Shown here piece by piece: positions 23,126-38,026 of a stretch of DNA of 55,239 bases (position 1 is the stretch's first letter; each line of letters starts with the position of its first letter). The DNA lies in contig CAMBXL010000014.1 in the NCBI GenBank assembly GCA_945871905.1, positions 1 through 55,239 on the forward strand. The letters are read 5' to 3'. The notes beneath the pieces were generated by a model. It saw only the letters and a list, made by a program, of their open reading frames with translations. It made no database searches and was not told the origin of the DNA. The translations under genes were made by a program, and so were the position numbers. Source of the stretch: Chitinophaga pinensis (GTDB lineage Bacteria > Bacteroidota > Bacteroidia > NS11-12g > UBA955).

Positions 23126-24015
23126 AGTTAAGTGTTTTTGTTTTATTGCTCCTCACATCAGCTTATACTAAAGCGCAAGATGTAGAAGTAAAAGTGAGTG
23201 TTATTCATCCCAAAGTACAAATTTCAAACACCCAAATATTTACATCTCTCAAAAGTTCTATCGAACAGTTTGTAAACCAACGGTTGTGGTGTAACGATAA
23301 ACTAACCACTGTAGAAAGATTTAAAGTTAACTTTTTAATAGACATTACTAAGTATGAATTAAACTCCAATCAATTTGAAGGAACTATCCAAATTCAAGCC
23401 ACCCGACAAGTTTTTGGAAGTACTTATTCTACAGTTATTTTCAACCAATTGGACAATGAATTCATTTTTCAATACCAAGAATTTCAAGCCATGGAATTTC
23501 AGCCCAATGCCAATGTTTATAACCTAACAGGTGTTTTGGCGTTTTACGTAAATGTCATTGTTGGTATGCAATATGATACTTATTCTTTGGAAGCAGGAAC
23601 GCCTTATTTTGTTAAAGCCAGAGAAATATTGAACGCTAGCCAGTCTATTCCAGGTTGGAGGCCCGGAGATGGACAAAGTTTGAAAAACAGATTTTACCTT
23701 ATCGATAATTTGACTAGTGAAAGATATGCCTTAATGCGCAAAGCTTATTATAATTACCATCTTAATGGTTTGGATTACATGCACAAGGATGTTAATAAAG
23801 GAAGAGATGAAGTGTTTAAAGCAATGGCAAGTTTTGAAGATTTAACCAGAACTTTTCCAAATTCTATGCTTATTAAAGTGTTTTTTAATGCTAAATACAG
23901 GGAATTAATTGAGATTTTTAAAGGAGCCCCCGCTGCTGACCAACAAAAAGCAATCGAATTATTCTCAAAAATGGATCCTGCCAACCGCTCGTTTTACGAA
24001 ACTATAAAAACGTAA
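23104..24015 (+). CDS. DUF4835 family exported protein
   Basis: The 303-residue protein has a signal peptide (LSVFVLLLLTSAYTKAQ) and the family's hallmark AFYVNVIVGMQYDTYSLEAG and IPGWRPGDG. DUF4835 is a Bacteroidota-specific family of unknown function, regularly found next to coaBC. The start overlaps coaB by 22 bases. Confidence 0.85.
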   Translation: MYFGKFIKLSVFVLLLLTSAYTKAQDVEVKVSVIHPKVQISNTQIFTSLKSSIEQFVNQRLWCNDKLTTVERFKVNFLIDITKYELNSNQFEGTIQIQATRQVFGSTYSTVIFNQLDNEFIFQYQEFQAMEFQPNANVYNLTGVLAFYVNVIVGMQYDTYSLEAGTPYFVKAREILNASQSIPGWRPGDGQSLKNRFYLIDNLTSERYALMRKAYYNYHLNGLDYMHKDVNKGRDEVFKAMASFEDLTRTFPNSMLIKVFFNAKYRELIEIFKGAPAADQQKAIELFSKMDPANRSFYETIKT

Positions 24016-24031
24016 AAACCACATTTGCAAA

Positions 24032-25054
24032 ATGAGTACCCATTTACCTCTTCTGTTTTCCTCATCGATACGTGAAGATTTTTGGAATTATTGTCATGTT
24101 AATACAATAGAAAAGCCTATAATTTTATGTGACACCAATACACTAAGAGATTGTTTGCCATTATTGGGGAATCAGAATTTATTCAGGTTGATTTGCATCC
24201 CTGATGGCGAAATAAACAAATCATGGGAACAGCTAAATGAATTGTTACAGCAACTTTTGGTGCTAAATGTTCATAGAAATGAAACCCTTTTTATTTTAGG
24301 CGGAGGTGTGTTAACGGATATAGGTGGATTGTCTGCTGCATTGTATCAAAGAGGAATCCCCCATGTAAATATACCAACCACTTTAATGGGAATGGTAGAT
24401 GCCGCTATAGGTGGAAAAACAGCCATTGATTTTGCAGGGATTAAGAATTTTGTAGGGATTGTTAAACAACCCGAAACTTGTATTATCGCCCCCATTTTCT
24501 TAAAAACTTTACCTGAAATTGAATACCAAAGTGCTTGGTCAGAAATTGTAAAAGTCGCCATCATTGATAGTAGAGAATTGTGGGAATTGATACATACGGA
24601 TGCCAGTATAGAAACAATCATTCCTTTTTGTGCCCATCATAAATATGACCTAGTTCAGCAAGATGAGCACGACAAGTCTATCAGACAGTTGCTCAATTTT
24701 GGTCATACTATCGGTCACGCCATCGAAGCTTTTTATCTTAGCAAAAATAAACCCGTAACCCACGGTTATGCCATTGCCAAAGGAATGCTTTTTGAGCTTT
24801 ATTTGGCGCATTATATACAGAGTATTTCAAGTGATGAATTGGCGCAAATGAAAGCTATTGTTTTGACAAACTTACTGAACAATGACAATAGTCTGGGAAT
24901 TGAACTTTCTGAGTTAAAAGAAACCATGTTTCACGACAAAAAAAAGACTGGAACCTCACTTCGGTTTTCACTTCCAATCACCGTAGGCAAAGGAAAGTGG
25001 GGCGTTGAAATAGAATGGGATACATTGCTCAAAGTGTATTCTATTTATTATTAA
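24032..25054 (+). CDS. aroB: 3-dehydroquinate synthase
   Basis: The 340-residue zinc enzyme of the shikimate pathway converts DAHP to 3-dehydroquinate. Key stretches are LFILGGGVLTDIGGLSAALY, NIPTTLMGMVDAAIGGKTAI and the zinc-ligand helix LLNFGHTIGHAIEAFY. The gene follows DUF4835 with 16 bases between and may belong to the bamD operon. A near-consensus CACATTTG box is seen 12 bases upstream of the ATG. aroK lies separately at 46509. Confidence 0.92.
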   Translation: MSTHLPLLFSSSIREDFWNYCHVNTIEKPIILCDTNTLRDCLPLLGNQNLFRLICIPDGEINKSWEQLNELLQQLLVLNVHRNETLFILGGGVLTDIGGLSAALYQRGIPHVNIPTTLMGMVDAAIGGKTAIDFAGIKNFVGIVKQPETCIIAPIFLKTLPEIEYQSAWSEIVKVAIIDSRELWELIHTDASIETIIPFCAHHKYDLVQQDEHDKSIRQLLNFGHTIGHAIEAFYLSKNKPVTHGYAIAKGMLFELYLAHYIQSISSDELAQMKAIVLTNLLNNDNSLGIELSELKETMFHDKKKTGTSLRFSLPITVGKGKWGVEIEWDTLLKVYSIYY

Positions 25055-25168
25055 AAGCATCATTTTTATTGTTGGTTTTAAACAAGACCTCACTTGCTTT
25101 TTTCATTTAGTAAATAGCATTTATTTTTTAAGTAAACATTCGTTAATTTGCAACCCAAATAATACAGA

Positions 25169-26731
25169 ATGAGTACACAATCTCAACAACCTATGAATAA
25201 AAGAGAAATTCTTGAAAGAAAAAAAGCGGAGAGCCTAGTTGGTGGAGGTGAAGACCGAATAAAATCACAACATAGTAAAGGTAAGTTAACCGCAAGAGAA
25301 CGTTTGCATTTTTTATTAGATGAAGGGAGTTTCAACGAAGTTGGGGCTTTTGTAATGCACCGTAGTAATGATTTCGGCATGGAAAAACAACGTTTTTTAG
25401 GCGATGGTGTGGTTACAGGTTACGGAACAATTAATGGTCGTTTGGTTTACGTTTTTTCTCAAGATTTTACTGTTTTTGGTGGTTCATTGAGTGAAACACA
25501 CGCTGAAAAAATTTGCAAAATAATGGATTTAGCACTCAAAAATGGTGCTCCTGTTATTGGGTTGAATGACAGTGGTGGTGCAAGAATTCAAGAAGGTGTG
25601 GTTTCTTTGGGTGGTTATGCTGATATTTTTTATAGAAACACCATTGCAAGTGGCGTAATTCCTCAGTTATCTGCTATTATGGGTCCATGTGCAGGTGGGG
25701 CTGTTTATTCGCCCGCTATTACCGATTTTATTGGAATGGTGGAAAATACAAGTTACATGTTTGTAACAGGTCCTAACGTAGTGAAAACTGTTACCAATGA
25801 AGAGGTAACAAGCGAACAATTGGGCGGTGCTTCGGTTCATTCAAGTAAATCAGGAGTGTCTCATTTTTCTTATGCCAATGAGATAGAATGTTTATCAGGG
25901 TTAAAAGCCTTGTTGAGTTACATGCCTCAAAATTGCGAGGAAAAAGCACCTGCATTGAATTACCAAATGGCAGATGAAAAAAGAGAGGTTTTGAAAGATA
26001 TAGTTCCAGATAATGCCAATCAACCTTATGATATGAGAGAGGTTATTGATGGAATCGTGGATGAAGGTTCTTTCTTAGAAGTTCATAAAAATTTTGCAGA
26101 AAATATAGTCGTTGGTTTTGCTAGACTTGCAGGAAGAAGTATCGGTATTATTGCCAATAATCCTGCCTTTTTAGCTGGTGTTTTAGATGTACATTCATCA
26201 ACCAAAGGTGCCAGATTTGTTAGATTTTGCGATGCCTTTAATATTCCTTTATTGGTTTTAGAAGACGTCCCAGGTTTTTTGCCAGGAACGGATCAGGAGT
26301 GGAATGCCATTATTACCAATGGGGCTAAATTGCTATATGCTTTTAGTGAAGCAACCGTTCCACGAGTTACCGTAATTACCCGTAAGGCCTACGGTGGTGC
26401 TTATGATGTGATGAATAGTAAACACATTGGCGCCGATATGAATTTTGCATGGCCTGGAGCTGAAATTGCGGTAATGGGTGCCAAAGGTGCTGCTGAAATT
26501 ATTTTCAAAAAAGAAATTACAAATGCCGAAAATCCAGAATTGGCTTGGAAAGAAAAAGAAGCAGAATATGCTGAAAAATTTGCTAACCCATACCGTGCCG
26601 CTGAAAGAGGATTTATTGATGAAGTAATTATGCCAGAACAAACGCGTCAAAAATTGATTTCATCTTTCAAAATGCTTGAAAACAAAGTAGCTAATTTGCC
26701 TAAAAAGAAACATGGAAATATTCCATTGTAA
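25169..26731 (+). CDS. pccB: Acyl-CoA carboxylase carboxyltransferase subunit (propionyl-CoA carboxylase beta type)
   Basis: The 520-residue protein has both crotonase-fold halves. The N-half contains [13 protein letters not shown] and [12 protein letters not shown] (oxyanion hole glycines). The C-half contains [16 protein letters not shown] and [18 protein letters not shown]. It moves the carboxyl from carboxybiotin to acyl-CoA. The Asp in YGGAYDV (residue about 413) is the residue that favours propionyl- over acetyl-CoA in studied PccB proteins. It should work with the biotin carboxylase at 3626, although 20 kb away. The glycosyltransferase gene begins eight bases downstream. Confidence 0.92.
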
Positions 26732-26739
26732 TAACTGAA

Positions 26740-27684
26740 ATGACTAAACTTATTTCCATAATTGTTCCTTGTTTTAACGAGCAAGAAGTGTTTGTAGAAA
26801 CCAATCGCCGTCTAAAAGCGGTGATGTCTCAACTCCCTATTGAACAATATCAATATGAAATAATTTATGTCAATGATGGAAGTGTCGACCAAACCCTTCC
26901 ATTAATTAAACAAGCCCTAACGGAAGACAAACATTTAAAGTGTCTTTCTTTCTCTCGAAATTTTGGACATCAAATCGCCATTACTGCTGGTTTGGATGCC
27001 TGCAAAGGAGACGCCGCTGTTGTAATTGATGCCGATTTACAAGATCCCCCTACTGTTATTTTGGAAATGATCAGTCTGTGGGAAAAAGGCTATGATGTTG
27101 TATTTGGTAAAAGGAAAGATAGGGTAGGGGAAAGTTCTTTCAAGCTCTTAACTGCCAAATATTTTTACAAACTCATCAACCGATTAAGCGATGTAGATAT
27201 TCCTCGCGATACCGGTGATTTCAGACTTATGGACCGAAATGCGCTCAATCAATTTTTGCTAATGCGAGAATCTTATCGATTTGTCAGAGGTATGGTGGCG
27301 TGGATTGGGTTCAATCAAACCTTTGTAGAATACGACCGCGAAAGTCGTTTTGCTGGTCAAACCAAGTACCCACTCAAAAAAATGCTGCGTTTGGCAAGTG
27401 ATGCCATCTTGTCATTTTCTAATACTCCCCTTAAAATTGCAACTTTTGTAGGGTTTATAACCTCTATAGCCGCTTTTATTGGAATTGTCTATTCCCTTTA
27501 TGTCAGATTATTTACCAAATCTTGGGTTGAGGGATGGACCTTTTTGATGATTGCCATTTTATTAATTGGCGGAATAATATTGCTCGTGTTAGGAATAATT
27601 GGAGAGTATGTTGGTCGAATCTATGGTGAAATCAAGCAAAGACCTCTTTATATCGTGAAAGATAAAATGGGGTTTGATGATTAA
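26740..27684 (+). CDS. Family 2 glycosyltransferase (polyprenyl-phosphate glycosyltransferase type)
   Basis: The 314-residue protein starts with a GT-A fold (SIIVPCFNEQEVF), has the DXD-like DADLQDPP, and the RDTGDFRLMDR acceptor-loop motif. Two C-terminal membrane spans (ATFVGFITSIAAFIGIVYSL; LIGGIILLVLGIIGEYVGRI) give the GtrB/DPM1-like layout. These enzymes load sugars onto undecaprenyl phosphate for envelope glycans. The sugar is unknown. Confidence 0.88.
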   Translation: MTKLISIIVPCFNEQEVFVETNRRLKAVMSQLPIEQYQYEIIYVNDGSVDQTLPLIKQALTEDKHLKCLSFSRNFGHQIAITAGLDACKGDAAVVIDADLQDPPTVILEMISLWEKGYDVVFGKRKDRVGESSFKLLTAKYFYKLINRLSDVDIPRDTGDFRLMDRNALNQFLLMRESYRFVRGMVAWIGFNQTFVEYDRESRFAGQTKYPLKKMLRLASDAILSFSNTPLKIATFVGFITSIAAFIGIVYSLYVRLFTKSWVEGWTFLMIAILLIGGIILLVLGIIGEYVGRIYGEIKQRPLYIVKDKMGFDD

Positions 27685-27816
27685 TTTATCGATTAATTGT
27701 CATTTTAATCTCATTTTTACTATTTAGCTGAAACGTTTTTTAGTCTTCTTGTGTCTAATATTTTAATAAGGCACAATAATTGAATAGATTATAGTGTTAT
27801 TAAACCTAACAAAGTG

Positions 27817-27924
27817 ATGAATACACTTAAAAAATATGAAAAAGTAAAAAGTCGTAGACGTGCTGTTGAAAAACCAATTCGCAAAAATGGCGATGGAATT
27901 AAACAAGGCCCTGCTGGTGTATAG
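27817..27924 (+). CDS. Possible small basic protein of 35 residues
   Basis: A short ATG-initiated frame encodes MNTLKKYEKVKSRRRAVEKP and then IRKNGDGIKQGPAGV. It is highly basic and its codons look like those of neighbouring genes. It sits alone in the 316-base gap between the glycosyltransferase and prfA. I found no TAnnTTTG box or clear ribosome binding site. I do not recognise the family; a small nucleic-acid-binding or ribosome-associated peptide is only a guess. Confidence 0.35.
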   Translation: MNTLKKYEKVKSRRRAVEKPIRKNGDGIKQGPAGV

Positions 27925-28000
27925 TTATGCTGAGCTAAACGACTTCTTTATATTATTTTAGATTGTTTGAAAAAACAAACTTATAGAATCTGTTGCTGTA

Positions 28001-29074
28001 TTAATTTCCTGATCCCTCCTGCATTCTCTCTGCATTCTCAGCTACTTTCAATGAATCTATCATTGGTTGGATGTCTCCGCCCAAAAAGTTGTCTAATGAA
28101 TAAATAGTCATGTTGATTCTGTGGTCGGTTACTCTGCCTTGAGGAAAGTTATAAGTTCTGATTTTAGCACTTCTGTCACCACTAGCAACCAATGTTTTTC
28201 TGGCACTTGCAATTTTTGAATTGTGTTCCTCTAAAGCTATTTCATAAAGTTTCGTTCTCAACATCTGCATCGCTCTTTCTCTGTTCCCAAGCTGTGAACG
28301 CTCTATTTGACACACGACTACAATCCCCGAAGGACGGTGGGTTAATTGCACTTTTGTTTCAACTTTGTTTACGTTTTGTCCACCTGCACCACCACTTCGA
28401 GAGGTTTGCATGTCAATGTCCGCTGGATTTAAATCCACGTCTACTTCCTCTGCCTCAGGCAACACCGCAACTGTTGCTGCCGAAGTATGAACTCTTCCCG
28501 CACTTTCAGTTTTGGGAACACGCTGTACCCTGTGAACGCCACTTTCATATTTTAAATCACCATAGACATTGCTACCAGTAATTTCCATTATAACCTCTTT
28601 ATAACCACCCGCTGTTCCTTCGTTTTCGTCAAGTATTTCAACTTTCCAACCACGGTTTTCGCAATAACGGTAATACATTTTCATTAAATCACCTGCAAAT
28701 AAACTTGCTTCATCACCACCCGTTCCTGCACGTATTTCAATAATTGCATTTTTGGCATCTTCAGGATCTTTGGGGATTAATAAAATTTTAATTCGTTCCT
28801 CCAATTCAATCACCTTTGCTTGCATTTCATCTGCTTCCTCTCGAGCCATTTCACGCATTTCAGCATCTTTCTCGTTTGCCATCAAGTCCTTGGCTTGTTG
28901 AAGGAAATTCAAAGCTTCTTTATATGAATTGGTTACCTCTACCATCTCTTTCAATTCACTGTACTCTTTGTTCAACTGTGCAAAACGCTTCATGTCTTGC
29001 ATGGTATCGGCACTACTCAACAATAATTCTACTTCTCTAAAACGGGCTTCTATCGCATCTAATTTATCTAACAT
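28001..29074 (-). CDS. prfA: Peptide chain release factor 1
   Basis: The 357-residue class I release factor has the universal GGQ tripeptide near residue 230 inside [18 protein letters not shown], preceded by [18 protein letters not shown] and [13 protein letters not shown]. It triggers peptide release at UAA and UAG. RF1 rather than RF2 is indicated by overall length and lack of the RF2 frameshift leader. It is the last gene of a minus-strand unit: lpxH, then the 29093-29896 gene, then prfA 18 bases later. Confidence 0.95.
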
Positions 29075-29092
29075 CGGGTAATCTTTGTTTTT

Positions 29093-29896
29093 TTACAAGG
29101 CCTGCAAAATTACATATTCATCTGTTAAGATGTATACTCTTTCTTTTTCAATTCGGATGTTTTTTATTTGAGGGATTTCCGAAACTATCATTTCTGTCAT
29201 TTCAAACAGTTTGGTGTTGTAAAAAAACAACTTGCCTTGGTGGTAAAAGCGAATGATATTGTTGTTAAACTGATAGTTGGAAAGTAAACTGTCTTCTAAA
29301 ATAATGTTGTGATAATTGCCGAATATATCAAATTGCAAAACCTGCTTGTCATTGAGAACCTGAACCGCGGAACTGATATCGAGAATTTGCTTGATTTGAA
29401 AACTGTGTTTGATGGGCAATAAATTAAATGGCGCACTTGAATAAATTAACGTTAAATCCAATTGGTATTTTTTGAGTTTCAAATCCGCTAAATCATACAA
29501 CCATATCTGATTGTCAAAGCTCCGAGCCATACACCCAACTTGTGAAATATTGGCCGACTCCAAGTCAACCGTGTTTAGAATGTTGAGGAGATTGTCTAAT
29601 ACAATAATTTTGTTTTGGTCGCGGTAAAAAACAAAAATCATAAAGGGATTACTCACGTCGATACTCGCTATTTTGCCATATATTTTAAAATTAGCATTGG
29701 CAATTAATAGGCCATCTCTGTTGTATTTTATAATATCGTTGGTAGGAGTAATAATGTATAAATGGCCCAAATGATCAGTGCTTATTTCACTGTCTTTGCT
29801 TATTTTGATGGAATCAATGTGTTTTAAAGTGCTGTTTTGTGCCTTTATTGTTTGATTTCCTAAAAGGATAAGTATGGCAACAATCAGATTTTTCAT
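29093..29896 (-). CDS. Hypothetical exported protein, propeller-like
   Basis: The 267-residue protein starts with a signal peptide (MKNLIVAILILLGNQTIKAQ). The mature chain consists of repeated beta-strand segments of the type DHLGHLYIITPTNDIIKYN and DNQIWLYDLADLKLKKYQ, resembling NHL- or beta-propeller-like repeats. No catalytic motif is seen. It overlaps lpxH by four bases. The first ~85 bases of the gene also occur, decayed, in the duplicated block at 31133-31225. Confidence 0.68.
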   Translation of the reverse strand: MKNLIVAILILLGNQTIKAQNSTLKHIDSIKISKDSEISTDHLGHLYIITPTNDIIKYNRDGLLIANANFKIYGKIASIDVSNPFMIFVFYRDQNKIIVLDNLLNILNTVDLESANISQVGCMARSFDNQIWLYDLADLKLKKYQLDLTLIYSSAPFNLLPIKHSFQIKQILDISSAVQVLNDKQVLQFDIFGNYHNIILEDSLLSNYQFNNNIIRFYHQGKLFFYNTKLFEMTEMIVSEIPQIKNIRIEKERVYILTDEYVILQAL

Positions 29897-30630
29897 GGTT
29901 TAAATACCTTTAGCTCAATTTGCGTGCCATCAAACACTGCATAAGTGAAATCGCCAACCCATTCGCCCAAATTGATATATCGTGAATTGGTTTTTAATTC
30001 AAGGTTTAACGGCAAGTGCCTGTGTCCACAAATGAAATAATCGTAATGGGTATGTTTCAGCGTTTCATTGCAAAATTGTGTGATAAATTCTTTGTCATCG
30101 CCCAAGTAGATTTTGTCTGAATTGCCTTTCCCTATTCTACTTTTTTGGGAAAGATATTTGGCCAAGCCAGCGCCCAAACGTGGGTGTAAAAAGCCAAACA
30201 ATCGAACGGCAAAAGGGTGTCTGAAAATGTGTTTAATGAATTTGTAGCCATTGTCGCCTGGGCCTAATCCATCGCCATGGTGCAAGAAAAACTTTTTGCT
30301 GTTACGCTCAATCACCAACTCATTGGAAATAACAGTAACTCCCAATTCTTGTTCCAAGTAGCCAAAAGTCCACATGTCGTGATTGCCCTTAAAAAAAGTG
30401 ACTTTAATGCCTGCATCAGTTAATGAAGCAATTTTTCCCATGAATCTCGAAAATCCTTTCGGAATCACATCGCGGTATTCAAACCAAAAATCAAAACAAT
30501 CGCCCATCAAATAGATTTCTTTTGCATCGACACTGATTTGGTCGAGCCACTTACAAATTAGTTTTTCCCTTTTGAGCGAAGCTTCAAAATTGGGAACACC
30601 TAAATGAAAGTCGGAAGCAAAATAAATCAT
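29893..30630 (-). CDS. lpxH: UDP-2,3-diacylglucosamine diphosphatase
   Basis: About 245 residues of calcineurin-like metallophosphoesterase: SDFHLG (DxH), GDCFDFWFEY (GDxxD), KGNHDMW (GNHD), HHGDGLGPGDNGYKF and CGHRHLP (GHxH). These match LpxH, which cleaves UDP-2,3-diacylglucosamine in lipid A synthesis at the inner membrane surface. The ATG at 30630 (MIYFASDFHLG) is preferred to a TTG two codons upstream. A diverged, internally deleted second copy lies at 31226-31558. Confidence 0.9.
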   Translation of the reverse strand: MIYFASDFHLGVPNFEASLKREKLICKWLDQISVDAKEIYLMGDCFDFWFEYRDVIPKGFSRFMGKIASLTDAGIKVTFFKGNHDMWTFGYLEQELGVTVISNELVIERNSKKFFLHHGDGLGPGDNGYKFIKHIFRHPFAVRLFGFLHPRLGAGLAKYLSQKSRIGKGNSDKIYLGDDKEFITQFCNETLKHTHYDYFICGHRHLPLNLELKTNSRYINLGEWVGDFTYAVFDGTQIELKVFKP

Positions 30631-30649
30631 CAACAAATATTTTAAACTT

Positions 30650-30657
30650 CAAACTTA
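30650..30657 (-). promoter_or_regulatory. -7 box of lpxH
   Basis: The minus strand reads TAAGTTTG about 20 bases upstream of the lpxH ATG, matching TAnnTTTG. No good -33 element was found. It lies between the XRE gene and lpxH, so lpxH can be transcribed separately. Confidence 0.4.
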
Positions 30658-30680
30658 CTGAATTCTTAACTTATTTTTGA

Positions 30681-31034
30681 TTATTTGTTCAAGCTAACTT
30701 GTTTTTCTTCAAGAAGTTTTATTTTGTCTTCAAGAAGTTTTATTTTGTCTTCATACAATTGTTGTAGTTCAATAGGGAAGTTGTATGCTCCAATCTGTTG
30801 TTCAATGGTATTGTTAAAGTTATTAAAAGCAATTTTTTTTTCAAAACCAATTAAGTTTTCAATATTAACTTTTAGAATTTCAGAAATTTTCAAAAGTTTT
30901 TCATAATTTAGACTTAATTCGTTTCGTTCTATTTTGCTATAACCTGTTAGAGATAAACCAAGTTCATTTGCCATTTTTTCTTGACTTAATCCCTTCAATT
31001 CTCTAATTTGTCTGATTTTTGTTCCAATTTCCAT
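30681..31034 (-). CDS. XRE-family helix-turn-helix regulator with C-terminal coiled coil (copy A)
   Basis: The 117-residue protein has an HTH_3 domain (residues 6-60: IRQIRELKGLSQEKMANELG, then YSKIERNE) and a C-terminal coiled coil made of the repeated heptad KIKLLED. The repeats are encoded by an almost perfect 21-base tandem repeat near 30710-30755. A paralogue with the same layout is at 31612-31959. It is on the same strand as, and directly upstream of, lpxH. Self-regulation is likely for this family but the target is unknown. Confidence 0.82.
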   Translation of the reverse strand: MEIGTKIRQIRELKGLSQEKMANELGLSLTGYSKIERNELSLNYEKLLKISEILKVNIENLIGFEKKIAFNNFNNTIEQQIGAYNFPIELQQLYEDKIKLLEDKIKLLEEKQVSLNK

Positions 31035-31064
31035 TTTAAACAGTTTTTTAAATTAAAAATTAAG

Positions 31065-31072
31065 CAAAATTA
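31065..31072 (-). promoter_or_regulatory. -7 box of XRE copy A
   Basis: The minus strand reads TAATTTTG, matching TAnnTTTG, about 30 bases upstream of the ATG at 31034. Confidence 0.35.
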
Positions 31073-31113
31073 ATATTTTTTAATTAATATAATTAAGATT
31101 TTAAAAATAAAAG

Positions 31114-31129
31114 TAAGTATTTTTACTTA
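31114..31129. promoter_or_regulatory. Inverted repeat upstream of XRE copy A, possible operator
   Basis: TAAGTA (31114-31119), TTTT, TACTTA (31124-31129) is a perfect six-base inverted repeat located about 45 bases upstream of the -7 box of the regulator gene. A related palindrome lies upstream of copy B (32022-32033); both contain the core TTACTT. Confidence 0.3.
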
Positions 31130-31132
31130 ATT

Positions 31133-31558
31133 AAATGGGATCAATGCGCTATTAAGCGTTGTTTTGCGCCTTTATTGTTTGATTCTTTAAAAGTATTAAG
31201 TATAGCAAAAATTAGTTTTTGAATGTTATAAATTCCATTAGTTCATTTTGCGTGTCCATCATAATACTTCTTTAGTAAAATCGCTAACCCATTCGCCAAA
31301 ATTAATATACCGTAAGTTTTTTTAATTCAATACATTAAAGCAGCTACCTATACCCACAAACTAAACAATCGAAGTGAATATGGTTTAGTGATTTATTGCG
31401 AAACAATGTTATGAACTCTCGAACTCTTAGTTAATTTCCAAATAGATTTATTTATTGACACATTTTTAGAAGAGCCACTTACAAATTTGCTTTCCCTTTT
31501 GAGAAAAACTTCTAAATTAGGGTCTCCCAAATGATAGTCGGTAGTGAAATTAAATCAT
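31133..31558 (-). pseudogene. Decayed second copy of lpxH plus the 5' end of the adjacent gene
   Basis: This interval aligns by eye with 29808-30630. Positions 31137-31225 match the first ~85 bases of the 29093-29896 gene, including its TTTATTGTTTGATT stretch. Positions 31226-31558 match the 3' end and the 5' end of lpxH, with roughly 400 bases missing from the middle and no open frame left. A tandem duplication of the XRE-lpxH block followed by decay explains it. No protein is expected. Confidence 0.75.
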
Positions 31559-31611
31559 CGACTATATTTTAAATTTCAAAAATATTGAATTCTTAGTTTA
31601 TTTATTGGTTG

Positions 31612-31959
31612 TTAAAGCTTGTTTATTTTTTCTTCAAGAAGTTTTATTTTTTCTTCAAGAAGTTTTATTTTATCTTCATATAATTGCTTTAATTCAATAG
31701 GGAAGTTGTATGTTGCAATTTGTTGTTTAACTGTATTATTATAATTATTTAAAGCTAAATTATTGTCGAAACCAATTAAATTTTCAACCGTAACTCCAAG
31801 AACTTCTGAAATTTGTAAGAGCCTATCATATTTTACACTTACTTCATTTCGTTCTATTTTGCCATAACCTGTTACAGATAATCCAAGTTCATTTGCCATG
31901 TTCTCTTGGTTTAATCCCTTCAAGTCTCTAATTTGTCTGATTTTTGATCCTATTTTCAC
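31612..31959 (-). CDS. XRE-family helix-turn-helix regulator with C-terminal coiled coil (copy B)
   Basis: 115 residues from a GTG at 31959, about two-thirds identical to copy A by eye. It has the same HTH_3 domain (IRQIRDLKGLNQENMANELG, YGKIERNE), the same linker NFPIELKQLYED and a coiled coil of KIKLLEE heptads. It has stayed open while the adjacent lpxH copy decayed, suggesting selection. It may regulate itself, copy A or lpxH; nothing in the sequence decides this. Confidence 0.8.
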   Translation of the reverse strand: MKIGSKIRQIRDLKGLNQENMANELGLSVTGYGKIERNEVSVKYDRLLQISEVLGVTVENLIGFDNNLALNNYNNTVKQQIATYNFPIELKQLYEDKIKLLEEKIKLLEEKINKL

Positions 31960-32001
31960 TTAAAAATAATAATAGTAAAATATTTTTAATATTTACGTTT
32001 G

Positions 32002-32009
32002 CAAAAATA
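32002..32009 (-). promoter_or_regulatory. -7 box of XRE copy B
   Basis: The minus strand reads TATTTTTG, matching TAnnTTTG, about 42 bases upstream of the GTG at 31959. The perfect palindrome GTTAC-TT-GTAAC at 32022-32033 lies just upstream, in a -33-proximal place suited to an operator. Confidence 0.4.
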
Positions 32010-32021
32010 TAAATTTGATTA

Positions 32022-32033
32022 GTTACTTGTAAC
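32022..32033. promoter_or_regulatory. Palindrome upstream of XRE copy B, possible operator
   Basis: GTTAC-TT-GTAAC is a perfect five-base inverted repeat with a two-base centre, about 13 bases upstream of the copy B -7 box. An autoregulatory site is inferred from position only. Confidence 0.3.
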
Positions 32034-32183
32034 ATTTTTTTTGTAAAATTAACCAATAGATTTAAAATATTAACTATTGGTGTTTTAATGTTAACTGAAA
32101 GTTTTAGTTGTTTAAGTATCTATCTATTTAATTTGTTATTAATTTTATAGAAAAATAAAATAATTTTTTTACTTAAATAGACA

Positions 32184-32780
32184 ATGACAAATAAAGAAAA
32201 TAAAAAAAAAGGAATAACGCCAAGTATATCAGAAAGTTTTAATGCGTGTATAATCGATGAATCAAATATATTCGCTTTGGGATTAAAAAATACATTAAAA
32301 AGAAATAATCAATCCAATAAACCAACTTGTGTCTTTATCTATGAAAACATAATTGATATTGTAGTTGATGATAGTAATCCAATTGATTTGTTTTTTATAG
32401 AATATACCCTGCTTTTAAAACCAAATTTTAATTCTAAGTTTTCTCTTTTAAAGAAAAATAATCCCAACATAAAATTAATTGTTTATGCAAATGATTTGTT
32501 GAAAGTTGATTTTGTTAAATTATATTCTTTTAATATTAATGGTTTTTTTTCAACAAGATTAACAATAAAGTCATTTAATTCATATCTTAAAAAAATAATG
32601 ATCCAGAATGTTTATATAGACCATTACAGTATAAGTCATTATGTTAATGTTGAAAAAAAACAGAAATTAAAATCATACTATAAGTCTGTCTCATTAAATA
32701 ATTTTGAAATGATAATAAATGATTCGGAAAATCAAACAATTTATAATGTTGATAGGGGAGTTTTGGATTATTCAATTTAA
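32184..32780 (+). CDS. Degenerate response-regulator receiver-like protein without output domain
   Basis: The 198-residue protein follows the strand-helix order of NarL-type receivers: ACIIDESNIFALGLKNTL (normally acidic pair plus GLK), DLFFIEYTLL where the phospho-acceptor Asp is expected but Glu is found, NIKLIVYAND, and GFFSTRLTIKSFNSYLKKI where GxxxK is usual. No LuxR HTH follows; the last 40 residues are unlike any output domain I know. It is very AT-rich and Asn/Lys-rich, unlike conserved neighbours. The call is inference from fold pattern. Confidence 0.5.
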   Translation: MTNKENKKKGITPSISESFNACIIDESNIFALGLKNTLKRNNQSNKPTCVFIYENIIDIVVDDSNPIDLFFIEYTLLLKPNFNSKFSLLKKNNPNIKLIVYANDLLKVDFVKLYSFNINGFFSTRLTIKSFNSYLKKIMIQNVYIDHYSISHYVNVEKKQKLKSYYKSVSLNNFEMIINDSENQTIYNVDRGVLDYSI

Positions 32781-32879
32781 TGGGTAGGCCATATTGAGTA
32801 AAATTAACTAGATTAATACATTGTATGAAGTATTATATGGCTTGAAAAGACAGGATGGGTTTTCTATAACTCCCAATAA

Positions 32880-33371
32880 TTATTTTTTCTTAACTCTCTC
32901 GTAAATATTGACCATTTGCAAACTCGACTGAAGGTGTTTCATTACAATTTCATCTTCTTTTTTAAGGTATTCTATGTTGTAGTTAAAAGAAGATTGGGAC
33001 GTATTACTTAATATTATTTTACTATCCACCATTTGGTAGTGCACAGGATTTTGATTTTGCTTGCTAGTACTGTTGTTGTCGTAAGGCTGAATTTGTGTTG
33101 AGGTAATTTTGAGTTTCATTCCAGCAAAAGACTGATAAAGTGTTATTGATTTTTTCTCAATTTCTTGCAAATAAGCCTCACTAGTATCGCCGTTACTCAA
33201 GTTTTTTTTGTAATATACAATCGTGTATTCAGGTTTTGATAGCAAGAAAATGGTGTCATTTTTGAGTAACATCAATTTCATTTGCCAATCACCAATATAA
33301 GGATTTTTTTCTTTGTGGGTAAAAGAAACCAAGAGGCTACAAACGCCTAAAAATAGAATAGTTAATCTCAA
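32880..33371 (-). CDS. Hypothetical exported protein
   Basis: From a TTG at 33371 the product is about 163 residues with a signal peptide (LRLTILFLGVCSLLVSFTHK). The frame stays open upstream to 33500, but the extra 43 residues look unlike a protein start, so I prefer the TTG. The mature part (NPYIGDWQMKLMLL ... YNIEYLKKEDEIVMKHL) has the strand pattern of a lipocalin-like or small beta-barrel domain ending YERVKKK. No motif is recognised. Confidence 0.55.
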   Translation of the reverse strand: MRLTILFLGVCSLLVSFTHKEKNPYIGDWQMKLMLLKNDTIFLLSKPEYTIVYYKKNLSNGDTSEAYLQEIEKKSITLYQSFAGMKLKITSTQIQPYDNNSTSKQNQNPVHYQMVDSKIILSNTSQSSFNYNIEYLKKEDEIVMKHLQSSLQMVNIYERVKKK

Positions 33372-33567
33372 TGATTGAAAGGGTAAAATCAAAGCGCAAT
33401 TTAAGTATTTTTTTGATTGTAAAGAAATCCTTTGATTTGTAAATGTATTAATCCAAAATATAAATGAGGAATTGATTATGCTTATTTTACACTTAAACAT
33501 TTTGTATTTTTCAAACCTATTAATTGTTATACTTGTAAGACTAAATCATAAAAAATAGTAATTTTTT

Positions 33568-33684
33568 CCTGTGGTTGGTCTGAAGTGGAGCTTTTTGTTG
33601 GGGTGACCACCCACTATGATCTGTTATTTTCCCTGTGGTTTGTCTGAAGTGGAGCTTTGTGTTGGGTCGACCAACCACTATGAT
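33568..33684. repeat. Two tandem copies of a 53-base repeat (period 64) beside tRNA-Cys
   Basis: Unit 1 (33568-33620) and unit 2 (33632-33684) share CCTGTGG, GTCTGAAGTGGAGCTTT and end in CCACTATGAT. Each begins with GTGGTT and ends with a complementary ACCACCCAC or AACCAC, so each folds as a hairpin. Unit 1's left arm GTGGTTGGTC is the exact complement of unit 2's right arm GACCAACCAC. Confidence 0.65.
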
Positions 33685-33692
33685 ATGAAAAA

Positions 33693-33725
33693 CAAAAAAC
33701 CCCGACTTAAATTAAGTCAGGGTTT
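33693..33725 (-). terminator. Intrinsic terminator of tRNA-Cys
   Basis: AAACCC-c-GACTT pairs with AAGTC-a-GGGTTT around an AAATT loop (33697-33725). On the minus strand the stem is followed by a T run (33699-33694), as expected just downstream of the tRNA. Confidence 0.75.
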
Positions 33726-33740
33726 CTGTTGTTTTATTGG

Positions 33741-33811
33741 AGGTCGGAACCGGATTCGAACCGGTGTAGAGGGTTTTGCAGACCCGTGCCTAGCCTCTCG
33801 GCCATCCGACC
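33741..33811 (-). tRNA. tRNA-Cys (anticodon GCA)
   Basis: The minus strand gives acceptor GGTCGGA pairing with TCCGACC, a D-arm, an anticodon loop CTGCAAA on a GGGT/ACCC stem with anticodon GCA, and a TPsiC arm with GGTTCGAATCC. 3' CCA is not encoded. Own promoter and terminator flank it. Confidence 0.93.
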
Positions 33812-33827
33812 TTTTTTAAACGAAGTG

Positions 33828-33858
33828 CAAAAATAGGGGTTTATAAGGAATAAGCAAA
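33828..33858 (-). promoter_or_regulatory. Promoter of tRNA-Cys
   Basis: On the minus strand TTTG (33858-33855), 19 bases, then TATTTTTG (33835-33828): an exact Bacteroidota promoter ending about 16 bases before the tRNA. Confidence 0.7.
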
Positions 33859-33875
33859 AAATGTTTTTAAAACAT

Positions 33876-34421
33876 TTATGCCATCTTACGGATAGTGCCT
33901 ACCGATTTACCTTTGCTTTTGGAATCACCTTTTACTGCTGTGTTTTTAACAGTTTTTGGTTTTATCTCAGCTTTAGGTTTTGAATCCGCTTTTACATCAG
34001 CACTGTTTTCTTCTTCTGTGGTTTTTTTAATGGCATCAAAATCGATTTTCTCTTTTAATAAACCATACCAAGTAGCTAGTTTTTTCATGTCTGACAAATA
34101 AATACGCTCATTGTCATAATTGGGAAGAACATCGCCTAAAAATTGAGAGAATTCTTTGTCTTCCGATTTTTTATCAGGAACTACCAAGCCAGTCGTTTCT
34201 TTTTCTTTAATACGTACAAGAATATCTGCTAATTTTTCTTCACCTTCTAAAGTAAACATAGCAATATCACTCAATATAGACACTTTTGTGGTGGGAGCCG
34301 TAGGGAATTTTTTACCAGAACCATCTAAAGCTTCCACAATTAAGCCGTTTTTTCTTTGTCCAATTACATGGTATAAGCCAGGCATCCCTGAAATAGCAAC
34401 AATATCTTTTAATTCTAACAT
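33876..34421 (-). CDS. DUF5606 family protein
   Basis: About 181 residues from the ATG at 34421 (MLELKDIVAISGMPGLYHVI); a TTG three codons upstream is less likely. The N-terminal 130 residues match the Bacteroidota-specific DUF5606 family (GLIVEALDGSGKKFP, YDNERIYLSDMKKLATWYGL). The C-terminus is a lysine- and alanine-rich, disordered tail. Function is unknown. It is divergent from the DUF4199 gene. Confidence 0.8.
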   Translation of the reverse strand: MLELKDIVAISGMPGLYHVIGQRKNGLIVEALDGSGKKFPTAPTTKVSILSDIAMFTLEGEEKLADILVRIKEKETTGLVVPDKKSEDKEFSQFLGDVLPNYDNERIYLSDMKKLATWYGLLKEKIDFDAIKKTTEEENSADVKADSKPKAEIKPKTVKNTAVKGDSKSKGKSVGTIRKMA

Positions 34422-34479
34422 ACCTTGCAAATTTCTAACTATTTTTGATAAAACAAAACGTTATCTATTATTTTTGTCA

Positions 34480-34487
34480 TAGTTTTG
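34480..34487 (+). promoter_or_regulatory. -7 box of the DUF4199 operon
   Basis: TAGTTTTG at 34480-34487 matches TAnnTTTG, 27 bases before the ATG at 34515. A second match, TATTTTTG, lies at 34469-34476, so the active one is uncertain. Confidence 0.4.
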
Positions 34488-34514
34488 TAAACTTTTTAAA
34501 AACGATTCAAATCA

Positions 34515-35036
34515 ATGAGTAAAAAACTTCTTATCTATGGACTTGCTTTTGGTAGTGCATGTGCCGCCATCAGCTTTGTGTATTTCTCTGCTGCGGTCTA
34601 TAAACAACCCCTCTTTATTCAGTCTATTTTTATTATTTCTGAATGGTTGCTCTTGCCAATTATTGCCATTTCTTTGTTTTTCAGGTCTATTAAACAAATG
34701 AATACTGAGTCTTTTACTATGGGAAGAGCCGTTTTTACAGGTTTTCTTTTAAGTATTATTATGTCTGCTGCCGTCTCTTTGGTGTTTACATACATCTTAC
34801 AATTCAAACCTGAACTTATTGCTCAAATTATTGATTACAAAAATGGGTTGATACTCATTAAAGCAAAACAGTTAAACAGAACACCTGAAGAAATCAAAAA
34901 TGCTTTAGATAATATTAAATTTGCTTACAACTCAAGTGCACAATTTATCAATCAAATATTTTTAGGAGCTTCCCGTGGTTTGTTTTTTAGTGCCATCATT
35001 GCTTATATTATGAAAGCCAAGATTAATAGAGATTGA
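34515..35036 (+). CDS. DUF4199 family membrane protein
   Basis: The 173-residue protein has four predicted membrane spans, with the first at residues 5-27, the second at 35-56, the third at 72-95 and the last at 147-165. A soluble loop with LNRTPEEIKNALD lies between the last two. This is the layout of DUF4199, common in Bacteroidota, function unknown. The stop overlaps the start of the acyltransferase gene by four bases. Confidence 0.78.
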   Translation: MSKKLLIYGLAFGSACAAISFVYFSAAVYKQPLFIQSIFIISEWLLLPIIAISLFFRSIKQMNTESFTMGRAVFTGFLLSIIMSAAVSLVFTYILQFKPELIAQIIDYKNGLILIKAKQLNRTPEEIKNALDNIKFAYNSSAQFINQIFLGASRGLFFSAIIAYIMKAKINRD

Positions 35037-35755
35037 AAAAGATAGTATCGCATATTTTCTTTGTTTGGTTTGCGCTTTGCTTTGCAGGACTTTTTCTTGC
35101 ATTCTATCCCTTGTTTTTAATTTTTTTAGCACATCCGTTCCTTTATCCTGTTGCCAATGTGTTAAGGAAAATATGGGCTTGGTTGGTTTTGTTTTTAGGA
35201 TTTAGTTTCCCCTTTTATAAACGCTATAAGGCTCATGTAAGTCAACCTTGTATTTATGTGGCAAACCACAGTTCTTATCTTGATATTGTTGCTTTTGGTT
35301 TATTTTTTCCCCTCAAGTCATGTTTTATGGCAAAAGCAGAATTGGCAAAAATTCCTTTGTTTGGTATTTTTTTCAGAACAGTGGATATCGCTGTAGAAAG
35401 ACAAAGTATAAGAGGTTCACACCGTTCATTTGTTTCGGCAGCCCAAAGGCTCGACCAAGGTTACAATGTTATCGTATTTCCCGAAGGAACTATTTCTTCG
35501 CATGCCCCACAAATGAAATCTTTCAAAAATGGTGCTTTTAAATTGGCAATCGAAAAGGGAGTTTCTATTGTTCCTGTTACGTTTTATAATAATTTTAAGA
35601 TACTGCCTGATGAAAAGTTTGAGTTTTATCCTCAGTTTTTGAAGTTCAAAATTCATCGTCCTATTTCCACCAATCATCTAAATATAGAACAAGCAGATGA
35701 GCTTAAAACTAAAATTTATCGTATTATTGAAGACGATTTAAACTCTATAAAATAA
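35033..35755 (+). CDS. Lysophospholipid acyltransferase (PlsC-like)
   Basis: The 240-residue protein starts at a TTG within TTGA and has an N-terminal membrane hairpin. It carries the acyltransferase motifs NHSSYLD (NHxxxxD), FFRTVDIAVER, FPEGTIS (FPEGT) and VPVTFYN. It adds an acyl chain to lyso-phosphatidic acid or a similar acceptor at the inner membrane. The exact acceptor is not certain. Confidence 0.88.
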   Translation: MKKIVSHIFFVWFALCFAGLFLAFYPLFLIFLAHPFLYPVANVLRKIWAWLVLFLGFSFPFYKRYKAHVSQPCIYVANHSSYLDIVAFGLFFPLKSCFMAKAELAKIPLFGIFFRTVDIAVERQSIRGSHRSFVSAAQRLDQGYNVIVFPEGTISSHAPQMKSFKNGAFKLAIEKGVSIVPVTFYNNFKILPDEKFEFYPQFLKFKIHRPISTNHLNIEQADELKTKIYRIIEDDLNSIK

Positions 35756-35759
35756 CAGT

Positions 35760-36056
35760 ATGCAAATTACAGACGAAAAAATAAATCAATTGGCACATTT
35801 GTCTCGCTTAACGTTTGATAATAATGAAAAAGCAAAAATTAAGCAAGATTTGGAGCGAATTTTAGAGCTTTGTGAAAGTCTTAATAAAATTGATACAGAG
35901 GGTGTTGAACCCCTTATTCACATGACCAATTCTGTGAATATTGTGAGAGAAGACAACCCTCATCAGGAATTTAGTCGTGAAGAGTTGTTGAAAAATGCCC
36001 CTAAAAAAGATTCGGATTATTTCAGAGTGCCAAAAGTAATAGAACAAGCCAAATAA
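35760..36056 (+). CDS. gatC: Asp-tRNA(Asn)/Glu-tRNA(Gln) amidotransferase subunit C
   Basis: The 98-residue protein has [35 protein letters not shown], and [20 protein letters not shown] with a final YFRVPKVI. These are the hallmarks of GatC, which stabilises GatAB in converting mischarged Glu-tRNA(Gln) or Asp-tRNA(Asn). gatA and gatB are not in the window. The gene sits between the acyltransferase and the ABC ATPase with small spacings. Confidence 0.93.
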
Positions 36057-36766
36057 TGTCACACTTAATTGACATAAAAGGCGTTCAAAAGGTTTATAAG
36101 CTGGGTACAGAACTGGTTTATGCCCTCAGGCACATTGATTTGAATGTTGTCAAAGGGGAGTATATAGCCTTAATGGGGCCCTCTGGTTCGGGTAAGTCAA
36201 CTTTAATGAATATTATTGGTTGCTTGGACACTGCGTCGAGCGGAACTTATATTTTAAATGGTACGAATGTTAGCCAAATGACTGAACAACACTTGGCTGA
36301 AATACGAAACAAAGAAATTGGTTTTGTCTTCCAAACCTTTAATTTAATGCCTAGAATGTCTGCCATTGAAAATGTGGCGTTGCCTTTGATTTATGCAGGC
36401 GTTTCCAAAAAAGAAAGACTTCTCAAAGCCGAAGAAGTTTTAATAAAAGTAGGACTCAAAGACAGGATGTTTCACAAGCCAAATGAATTGTCGGGCGGAC
36501 AAAGACAGCGTGTTGCCATAGCAAGAAGTTTGGTTAATAATCCAAGTATTTTGTTGGCAGATGAACCTACGGGGAACTTGGATTCCAAAACATCAGTTGA
36601 AATTATGACCCTGTTTGAAGAAATCCATCAGAACGGAAATACAGTCGTTCTAGTAACGCACGAGGAAGATATTGCAGCTTATGCCAAACGAATAGTTAGA
36701 CTGAGAGATGGAAAAGTTGAATTAGATGAACAAAATTTGAAACCAAACTCAAATTTAATTGTTTAA
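36056..36766 (+). CDS. ABC transporter ATP-binding protein (MacB/LolD type)
   Basis: The 236-residue ATPase has Walker [10 protein letters not shown], the Q-loop VFQTFNLMP, the signature [15 protein letters not shown], Walker [12 protein letters not shown] and the H-loop VTHE. NLD after Walker B and length fit the MacB/LolD/FtsE cluster, which drives lipoprotein sorting or peptide export together with a FtsX-like permease. The permease is not adjacent. Its ATG overlaps the gatC stop by one base. Confidence 0.9.
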
Positions 36767-36786
36767 TCAAATTAGTTTTATAGAAA

Positions 36787-37332
36787 ATGAAAATTTATAC
36801 CAAAAAAGGCGATCAGGGTTCCACTTCATTAATAGGTGGTGACAGAGTTTTAAAATCACACGTTAGGATAGAGGCATACGGAACGATTGATGAACTGAAT
36901 TCACACATTGGTATATTAAGGTCTTTTGTAAATGACGATATTAATCCGTTTATTTTAAAGGAATTACAAGATAGATTGTTTACAATAGGAAGTATTTTGG
37001 CTTCTGCACCGGACAGTAAAATGGTTGTGCCTGATTTGCACACCACTGACACCGAAATGTTAGAACAAGCTATTGATAAAATGAATGAGGAATTACCAGT
37101 ATTAAGAACATTTATATTGCCAGCAGGTAGTATGCACATAGCGCAATGTCACGTGGTGAGATGTGTGTGTAGACGCGCCGAAAGATTAGTAGTGAATCTT
37201 AACGAAATGGAACCAATTGATGAGTTGATATTACAGTATTTAAACCGTTTATCGGATTATTTATTTGTACTAGCAAGGTACATTGCTTTTGCCAATAAAA
37301 TTGAAGAAGTGTCTTGGTTACCAAGAAAATAA
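36787..37332 (+). CDS. ATP:cob(I)alamin adenosyltransferase (PduO type)
   Basis: The 181-residue enzyme has the start KIYTKKGDQGSTSLIGGDRV, AYGTIDELNSHIG and the C-terminal CHVVRCVCRRAERLVV, with YLNRLSDYLFVLARY. These are hallmarks of the PduO/MMAB family, which makes adenosylcobalamin. That is the cofactor of methylmalonyl-CoA mutase, whose B12 subunit is at 8751. It follows the ABC ATPase with 20 bases between. Confidence 0.92.
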   Translation: MKIYTKKGDQGSTSLIGGDRVLKSHVRIEAYGTIDELNSHIGILRSFVNDDINPFILKELQDRLFTIGSILASAPDSKMVVPDLHTTDTEMLEQAIDKMNEELPVLRTFILPAGSMHIAQCHVVRCVCRRAERLVVNLNEMEPIDELILQYLNRLSDYLFVLARYIAFANKIEEVSWLPRK

Positions 37333-37342
37333 GGTTTTATCC

Positions 37343-38026
37343 TTATTCTTTTCCTGTTAATTTATTTTTGTAATACATCGCCTCTTGGTAGTCAGGATTA
37401 ATTGCTAATGCTGAATCTAAGAAAGGGATGACTGCACTTTTGTTAAGTGTTGTTTTTGCTTTGTCTAAGTAGCAAAGCGATTTGATATCAACCATTTGGG
37501 TGTTGTTTTCATCAACATTAACCTCTACCAATTCTGGTTTAGTTGATGGATTATATAAAATGCTATTTGCAACTTTACTGTATTCCTCAATATTTCCCTC
37601 AGAGGCATAAGTGGTTGCATACATGTACAAGTGTTTGTTTAGTCCTGATATTTTGTGGGCTTTCAAAAGGTGTTCTCTAGACTCATTGATTTTGCCTTGA
37701 GCGCTCAGAAATACACTTTTATATTCTAGTAATTGTGCTTTGTTTGGATTGATTTGAAGTCCTTTTTCAACGATTTTCTCACCAGCAGAAAAATTTCTTA
37801 GTTTCTTAATATAAAAGAAAGACAAACTGTCGTAATAAGCTTCAATATTGGAAGTGTCCTCAATTATCAAATGATTAAGGGCTACCACTGCGGTCATGTA
37901 ATCATTGTTGATTAATGAATTTTGGTAAACGGTACTCCATTGCTTGTTTGCAGAAGTAGAAGGAGAATTACAGTTGCTTAGTACCAAAGAAGCAACTATT
38001 GAGAGAAAAAGGAGTCTATAAGTCAT
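37343..38026 (-). CDS. TPR-repeat lipoprotein
   Basis: The 227-residue protein has a lipoprotein signal (LLFLSIVASLVLSNC, lipobox LSNC) and several helical repeats of TPR type, for example EKGLQINPNKAQLLEYKSVF and LDSALAINPDYQEAMYYKNK. It probably acts as a scaffold in the periplasm or outer membrane. It converges with the adenosyltransferase gene, with an ATAAGG/CCTTAT hairpin between the stops (37328-37345). It is divergent from the T9SS protein. Confidence 0.78.
   Translation of the reverse strand: MTYRLLFLSIVASLVLSNCNSPSTSANKQWSTVYQNSLINNDYMTAVVALNHLIIEDTSNIEAYYDSLSFFYIKKLRNFSAGEKIVEKGLQINPNKAQLLEYKSVFLSAQGKINESREHLLKAHKISGLNKHLYMYATTYASEGNIEEYSKVANSILYNPSTKPELVEVNVDENNTQMVDIKSLCYLDKAKTTLNKSAVIPFLDSALAINPDYQEAMYYKNKLTGKE

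Follow-up and report, generated by a model that had tools for sequence, protein, structure and literature searches.

Why should a small regulator gene stand in two open copies beside lpxH, when lpxH itself is intact in one copy and ruined in the other? The question is raised by a contig of 55,239 nucleotides from Chitinophaga pinensis (GTDB lineage Bacteria; Bacteroidota; Bacteroidia; NS11-12g; UBA955; assembly GCA_945871905.1, contig CAMBXL010000014.1), all of which was analysed and is referred to here as the window. On its minus strand the order is XRE2, an lpxH remnant, a remnant of the start of the gene at 29093 (hereafter the 29093 gene), XRE1, lpxH, the 29093 gene and a prfA-like gene, XRE1 and XRE2 being regulators with a helix-turn-helix (HTH) domain. 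By computation, the locus holds a tandem duplication of the lineage's own, a second lpxH that is dead, two XRE genes under constraint and a regulator without counterpart in the DNA examined upstream of lpxH in relatives. We consider it probable, at roughly 80%, that a stand-alone XRE gene landed in the slot that separates tRNA-Cys from lpxH, that a duplication then copied it with lpxH as a passenger, and that the passenger decayed while both XRE genes were kept.

Duplicated block and decay of the second lpxH

The first block consists of XRE1 (30681..31034, minus strand), the intact lpxH (29893..30636, minus strand) and the first ~90 bp of the 29093 gene (29093..29896, minus strand), which form the left part of the duplicated unit. 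It recurs as a second block with XRE2 (31612..31959, minus strand), an lpxH remnant (~31217..31560, minus strand) and, by alignment, a remnant of the 29093-gene 5' end (~31133..31216, minus strand). Direct repeats D1, D2, D4, D6, D9 and D10 trace both blocks in identical order and strand, and a local alignment spans the XRE start, lpxH and the first ~90 bp of the 29093 gene. The part of the block alignment that lies outside the XRE genes scored 284, and none of 200 dinucleotide-preserving shuffles exceeded 58.5. The original prediction of a tandemly duplicated XRE-lpxH block is borne out by these in-register repeats and by pairwise similarity far above random outside the regulator genes. Its placing of the edges fared less well: the repeat itself stands, and ungapped similarity on the left begins at ~29795/31122, not at 29808/31133. 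The right edge lies upstream of XRE2 and possibly extends to ~32180, where the similarity is faint and AT-rich.

The best NCBIfam matches of the intact lpxH product were NF003743 (9.1e-25; 87.2 bits against a cut-off of 134) and TIGR01854 (1.4e-21; 76.9 bits against 190.35). Because both scores fall below the curated cut-offs and the name comes from the best match, we call this member of the UDP-2,3-diacylglucosamine diphosphatase family LpxH-like. The protein carries DFH at residue 9, GD at 45, GNHD at 84, HGD at 120 and GHRH at 204, which we take to be the metal-site motifs of the LpxH family. A full copy occurs in 15 of 16 relatives of the genus at 67-80% identity, the remaining one (G004) having just a fragment of lpxH where its contig ends; the gene represents a divergent LpxH-like family.

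In the second copy, ~400 bp have been lost from the middle of lpxH through gaps of 70, 10, 67, 139 and 111 bp and smaller ones, the placement of the large gaps being uncertain because only tiny aligned islands lie between them. There are seven frame-breaking short gaps in 387 aligned bases, together with stops, and the longest stop-free stretch between the two XRE genes (31041-31611, both strands) is 53 codons. Judged from its sequence, the second lpxH is a dead gene, as had been predicted along with the extent of its loss.

Relation of the regulator to lpxH

It had also been proposed that the regulator may control lpxH. In its full form, this explanation holds that XRE regulates lpxH and that lipid A control or XRE dosage is the reason why the duplication persisted. 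Its appeal lies in the layout: XRE1 precedes lpxH on one strand, 44 bp separate the two, and read-through or an operon is possible. Comparison with relatives gave no sign of such a link. In all 15 lpxH loci of the genus, the gene order is lpxH, 29093 gene, prfA, and no XRE gene was found in the upstream DNA examined from these 15 relatives (only ~350 bp in L038 and ~840 bp in L039). A further set of 13 stretches, of which 11 reach farther upstream, had none either. Nor was lpxH, the 29093 gene or prfA present at any of 112 XRE loci (1.5-5 kb on each side, or less where the contig ended; some loci overlap or are counted twice, and an XRE at 1e-6 is found in 111); of the other window genes, only the glycosyltransferase-like 26740 gene had a relative there, in L025. 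XRE matches occur in 16 of 58 relatives at 1e-8 (17 of 59 with the own genome included) and in a single one of 69, G019, at 1e-20 (2 of 70 with the own genome).

Candidate promoters also separate the two genes. According to an excerpt of PMC9723704, the main sigma factor of flavobacteria uses TAnnTTTG as its -7 box. Within 60 bp of the start, TANNTTTG is present in eight of nine chosen XRE genes (the window pair, L067, L068, L069, L070, L071 and L122 with the box, L073 without it), compared with a mean of 0.5 and a maximum of 3 in 500 Markov simulations. The candidate box of XRE1, TAATTTTG (31065..31072, minus strand), lies 38 bp before the start codon, and that of XRE2, TATTTTTG (32002..32009, minus strand), 50 bp before it. 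For lpxH, the candidate box TAAGTTTG (30650..30657, minus strand) is located downstream of XRE1, 30 bp upstream of codon 4, and has a counterpart, TATGTTTG, at 29 bp in L034, the nearest relative. We infer that these -7 boxes are in use as promoters.

Control of lpxH was therefore dropped as the leading explanation, given the lack of linkage and the position of the lpxH box downstream of XRE1; that XRE2 has been kept although the lpxH downstream of it is dead argues in the same direction. We regard such control as improbable, and a dosage role of the duplicated regulator as possible. No literature was found on an XRE family with lpxH in Bacteroidetes, and nothing on this arrangement.

Origin of the second copy

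The remnant is 70.0% identical to the lpxH of its own genome (231/330), and the best of 19 other lpxH genes, 15 from the genus and 4 from the family, reaches 60.8% (202/332). In a tree built from 28 XREs (the window pair, 16 chosen loci and 10 further loci from other searches), XRE1 and XRE2 come out as sisters with support of 97/91. Since the remnant is closest to its own lpxH and the two XRE genes are sisters, both halves of the second block appear to stem from one duplication within this lineage. Independent origins of the two XRE genes, a possibility that the original prediction had itself raised, were not seen and are disfavoured by the same tree.

Synonymous divergence (dS) of the XRE pair was 0.45 by NG86, 0.55 by YN00 and 0.21 by LWL85. 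The remnant differs from its own lpxH by 21.7% in a gappy pairwise alignment (Jukes-Cantor 0.26) and by 30% in a multiple alignment (Jukes-Cantor 0.38), so the XRE dS of 0.45 (NG86) and a remnant divergence of 0.26-0.38 indicate a similar age for both halves. For the own lpxH against L034, L035 and L036, NG86 gave no dS value (it returned -1) and a nonsynonymous divergence (dN) of 0.16-0.20. The locus thus displays what is expected of a tandem gene duplication, namely two head-to-tail copies that are sisters and have parts of similar age.

It is alternatively conceivable that XRE2 and the lpxH fragment were transferred from an unsampled sister species and not duplicated in this genome. The remnant differs from its own lpxH at 30% of 330 columns, which makes the event old and a closer, unsampled donor conceivable. 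Against this, the own lpxH is the closest of 20 to the remnant, and where the own gene and that of L034 (from G001) differ, the remnant matches the own gene in 60 columns, L034 in 20 and neither in 19. With XRE1 and XRE2 as sisters in addition, we hold transfer to be unlikely and duplication within the lineage to be the better account.

Constraint on the regulators

XRE1 and XRE2 are 72-73% identical, and XRE2 is open over 115 aa. The ratio dN/dS between them, determined here as proposed in the original prediction, is 0.30 by NG86 (bootstrap 0.15-0.54, 500 resamples) and 0.24 by YN00, in keeping with purifying selection. Differences fall 18/6/32 on codon positions 1/2/3 (114 sites each; chi-square p = 1e-4) in the XRE pair and 28/27/44 of 111/109/110 (p = 0.06) in the lpxH remnant. 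Against L067 and L068, the window XREs show dN of 0.23-0.32 and dS of 1.0-2.1, and the constraint within the pair is therefore usual for its relatives. Polarised residue changes number 10 in XRE1 and 13 in XRE2, with 10 unresolved, so that 23 is the maximum assignable to the XRE2 branch. In neutral simulations, 37 of 2000 runs kept an open frame at a branch length of 0.18 and 19 of 2000 at 0.22, and none of the 2000 had <=23 residue changes at either length. When the frame-breaking gap rate of the remnant was added, 0 of 3000 runs stayed open at each of four branch lengths. An open and constrained XRE2, kept without a live second lpxH, agrees with the predicted selective retention of the regulator and suggests that the regulator functions independently of the second lpxH copy and was kept for its own sake.

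Several observations weigh against the reading preferred here. By LWL85 the dN/dS of the pair is 0.45, a weaker constraint; at the shortest simulated branch, 0.13, 84 of 2000 neutral runs stayed open and 151 of 2000 had <=23 changes; and the GTG start of XRE2 may mean weak translation. Only 4 of 16 lpxH genes in the genus set have TANNTTTG within 60 bp of the start (simulations: mean 0.65, maximum 3), which makes the lpxH box less sure than those of the XRE genes. Finally, the regions upstream of XRE1 and XRE2 align barely above shuffles (6/300 reach the score), so the right edge and the microhomology discussed below are tentative. Although the GTG start and the 84 open runs would fit an XRE2 that is open by chance and heading for decay, we think this the least probable explanation of all, given the upper bound of 0.54 on dN/dS, the roughly even spread of polarised changes over the two genes, a nearly unchanged helix at residues 88-111 and the failure of every run to stay open at the remnant's gap rate.

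Protein family and relatives

XRE1 is a 117-aa HTH_3 regulator (Pfam, 7.6e-13) with a long C-terminal helix, and XRE2 is of the same type; at 48.7 and 44.6 bits, respectively, both exceed the cut-off of 23 bits of PF01381 (HTH_3). No NCBIfam cut-off was reached. Scores for the RstR phage repressor (NF041951; 45.9 and 45.6 bits, cut-off 80) and for a HipB-type antitoxin (TIGR03070; 31.7 and 34.4 bits, cut-off 71.65) fell short as well.

An AlphaFold2 model of XRE1 built from 10 sequences had a mean predicted local distance difference test (pLDDT) score of 82.9 and a predicted template modelling (pTM) score of 0.54, with residues 72-82 below a pLDDT of 50. Helices at 3-14, 18-25, 29-36, 44-53 and 58-62 make up a five-helix, lambda-repressor-like XRE domain, followed by a long C-terminal helix at 88-116. 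Foldseek returned DdrO 6rnz (TMt 0.88), SinR 3zkc (TMt 0.83) and CapH 7t5u and, lower, P22 c2, C.AhdI and C.BclI, with a probability of 1.00 to SinR and P22 c2; no solved structure was found by sequence at 1e-5. Of 111 residues compared between XRE1 and XRE2 (the start codon read as M), 29 differ, including 2 of 8 in helix 29-36, presumably the recognition helix, and 2 of 24 in 88-111. From the model, the two proteins may pair with each other through the C-terminal helix. This helix contains a 7-residue (21-nt), EDKIKLL-like repeat (30711-30752 and 31636-31677), also present in L122, which is a likely site of slippage.

With the SinR, P22 c2 and C-protein repressors the pair has in common the five-helix HTH domain and the HTH_3 match; unlike them, it has a C-terminal part made of a single long helix with the 7-residue repeat, and no partner gene was recognised beside it. 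The layout recurs in stand-alone XREs of ~115-130 aa in metagenome-assembled genomes of Bacteroidota (L067, Chitinophaga; L068, Sphingobacteriia; L122, Saprospiraceae), 58-65% identical over the best segment, with a -7 box 12-25 bp before the start and no neighbour gene common to all three. In contrast to the window, these three loci lack a duplicated neighbour (longest repeat 33 nt at 73%).

Other affiliations were examined and set aside. A conserved partner gene was sought by clustering 185 open reading frames (ORFs) from 37 loci (the window and 36 chosen XRE loci), and no non-XRE family occurred in more than four loci. PADLOC matches at 1e-3 (10 for XRE1 and 8 for XRE2, among them HTH_VI, control proteins, CapH and RmrA) were read as general HTH similarity and not as a sign of a defence regulator; no defence genes were recognised beside XRE1 or XRE2. 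As to phage origin, XRE1 had no match at 1e-5 in 50,697 phage records. Seven plasmid records matched it, none over 80% of the query. Two IMG/VR loci match residues 7-38 only, and the PHROG matches are to other XRE regulators.

Probable insertion site and neighbouring genes

The slot between tRNA-Cys and lpxH differs among the relatives of the genus. Six of the 13 stretches keep g33876 and tRNA-Cys upstream as in the window, and these six have different ORFs of 90 aa, or none, between tRNA-Cys and lpxH. In 500-base steps, GC content is 20-30% over 30500-33499 and 31-43% in the other steps of 24000-37999. A 61-nt tandem repeat (89%) is located at 33563-33687, just 3' of tRNA-Cys (33738-33811, minus strand).

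Paired XREs were also seen in other genomes. G025, which belongs to a different genus of the family, carries a repeat of 617 columns at 96% (L161, 3875-4489 and 5644-6255) that takes in a distant XRE (35% identical) together with the 3' end of the gene next to it; one of the XRE copies contains an early stop. In G030, two XREs with 31% and 37% identity to XRE1 are accompanied by collinear stretches of similarity (L164, 1-434/6032-6460 and 2632-2902/7240-7523; upstream, 434 bp at 83%; downstream, 43 bp at 88%). This is a possible further segmental duplication; the upstream stretch forms the end of large genes of secreted type, and its repetition may have another cause. The XRE pairs of G012 and G015 had no repeat of at least 40 nt. 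It could be imagined that stand-alone XREs are minimal wanderers which take up places between genes and time and again become duplicated with a piece of their surroundings, the pair being kept as mutually pairing regulators. With G025 and G030 as the only further cases, there are too few to claim a rule, and we find the generalisation doubtful.

Upstream of XRE1, at the duplication junction, is an inverted repeat, TAAGTA-TTTT-TACTTA (31114..31129, no strand), and another, GTTAC-TT-GTAAC (32022..32033, no strand), lies between XRE2 and the divergent ORF 32184. These are candidate operators only; the two differ in sequence and constitute weak evidence. At least one site of the first type, with one mismatch allowed, is held by 20 of 100 shuffles of the window; the second has no other perfect copy in the window, and when two mismatches are allowed, 10 matches are found where 6.4 are expected.

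ORF 32184-32780 (plus strand) encodes 198 aa and is very AT-rich. Searches of Pfam, NCBIfam, PHROG and PADLOC gave no match, and of 58 relatives only G001 had one (34%). Paralogues are found in its own genome at C5:44907 (46%) and at C2:96729-97270, the latter in two pieces with a stop; ORF 32184 represents a lineage-specific family. ORF 32880 was likewise without a match in Pfam, NCBIfam or PHROG, and no toxin of a known family was recognised beside the XRE genes. On the other side of the block, the 29093 gene is an intact ORF of 267 aa with no match in Pfam or NCBIfam, and it is followed by the release-factor gene (prfA-like by Pfam; 29074-28001, minus strand).

Proposed course of events

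We propose that a small stand-alone XRE gene with its own promoter, probably arriving horizontally, entered the variable slot between tRNA-Cys and lpxH. A later tandem duplication would have copied the XRE gene, lpxH and the first ~90 bp of the 29093 gene. Its junction probably formed where the 29093 gene and the region upstream of the XRE gene share a short T/A-rich homology. A T/A-rich stretch is common to the unit ends: the 29093 gene has TTTGCTTATTTT, the junction TTTACTTAATTA and the DNA before ORF 32184 TTTACTTAAATA. Duplication through short homology is, on these sequences, likely. Tandem duplication with 9-bp microhomology borders has been described in bacteria, according to an excerpt of PMC11111574. 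As in the case presented in that excerpt, the copy here is head-to-tail and a short similar stretch stands at the three ends; unlike it, the present duplication is natural, old and partly decayed, and its homology is AT-rich and inexact. The new lpxH would then have been a redundant passenger free to decay, both XRE copies staying under purifying selection. The XRE proteins may act as dimeric repressors of the SinR/P22-c2 type, with their own promoters, and perhaps the divergent ORF 32184, as targets.

Conclusions

The fate of the block is an ordinary outcome of gene duplication, in which the redundant passenger is lost and the regulator retained. It amounts to a natural experiment: one duplication produced two genes of similar age, one now dead and one constrained, which separates the regulator from its neighbour. 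For Bacteroidota genomes this carries a caution against reading a regulator's target off its adjacency to a gene.

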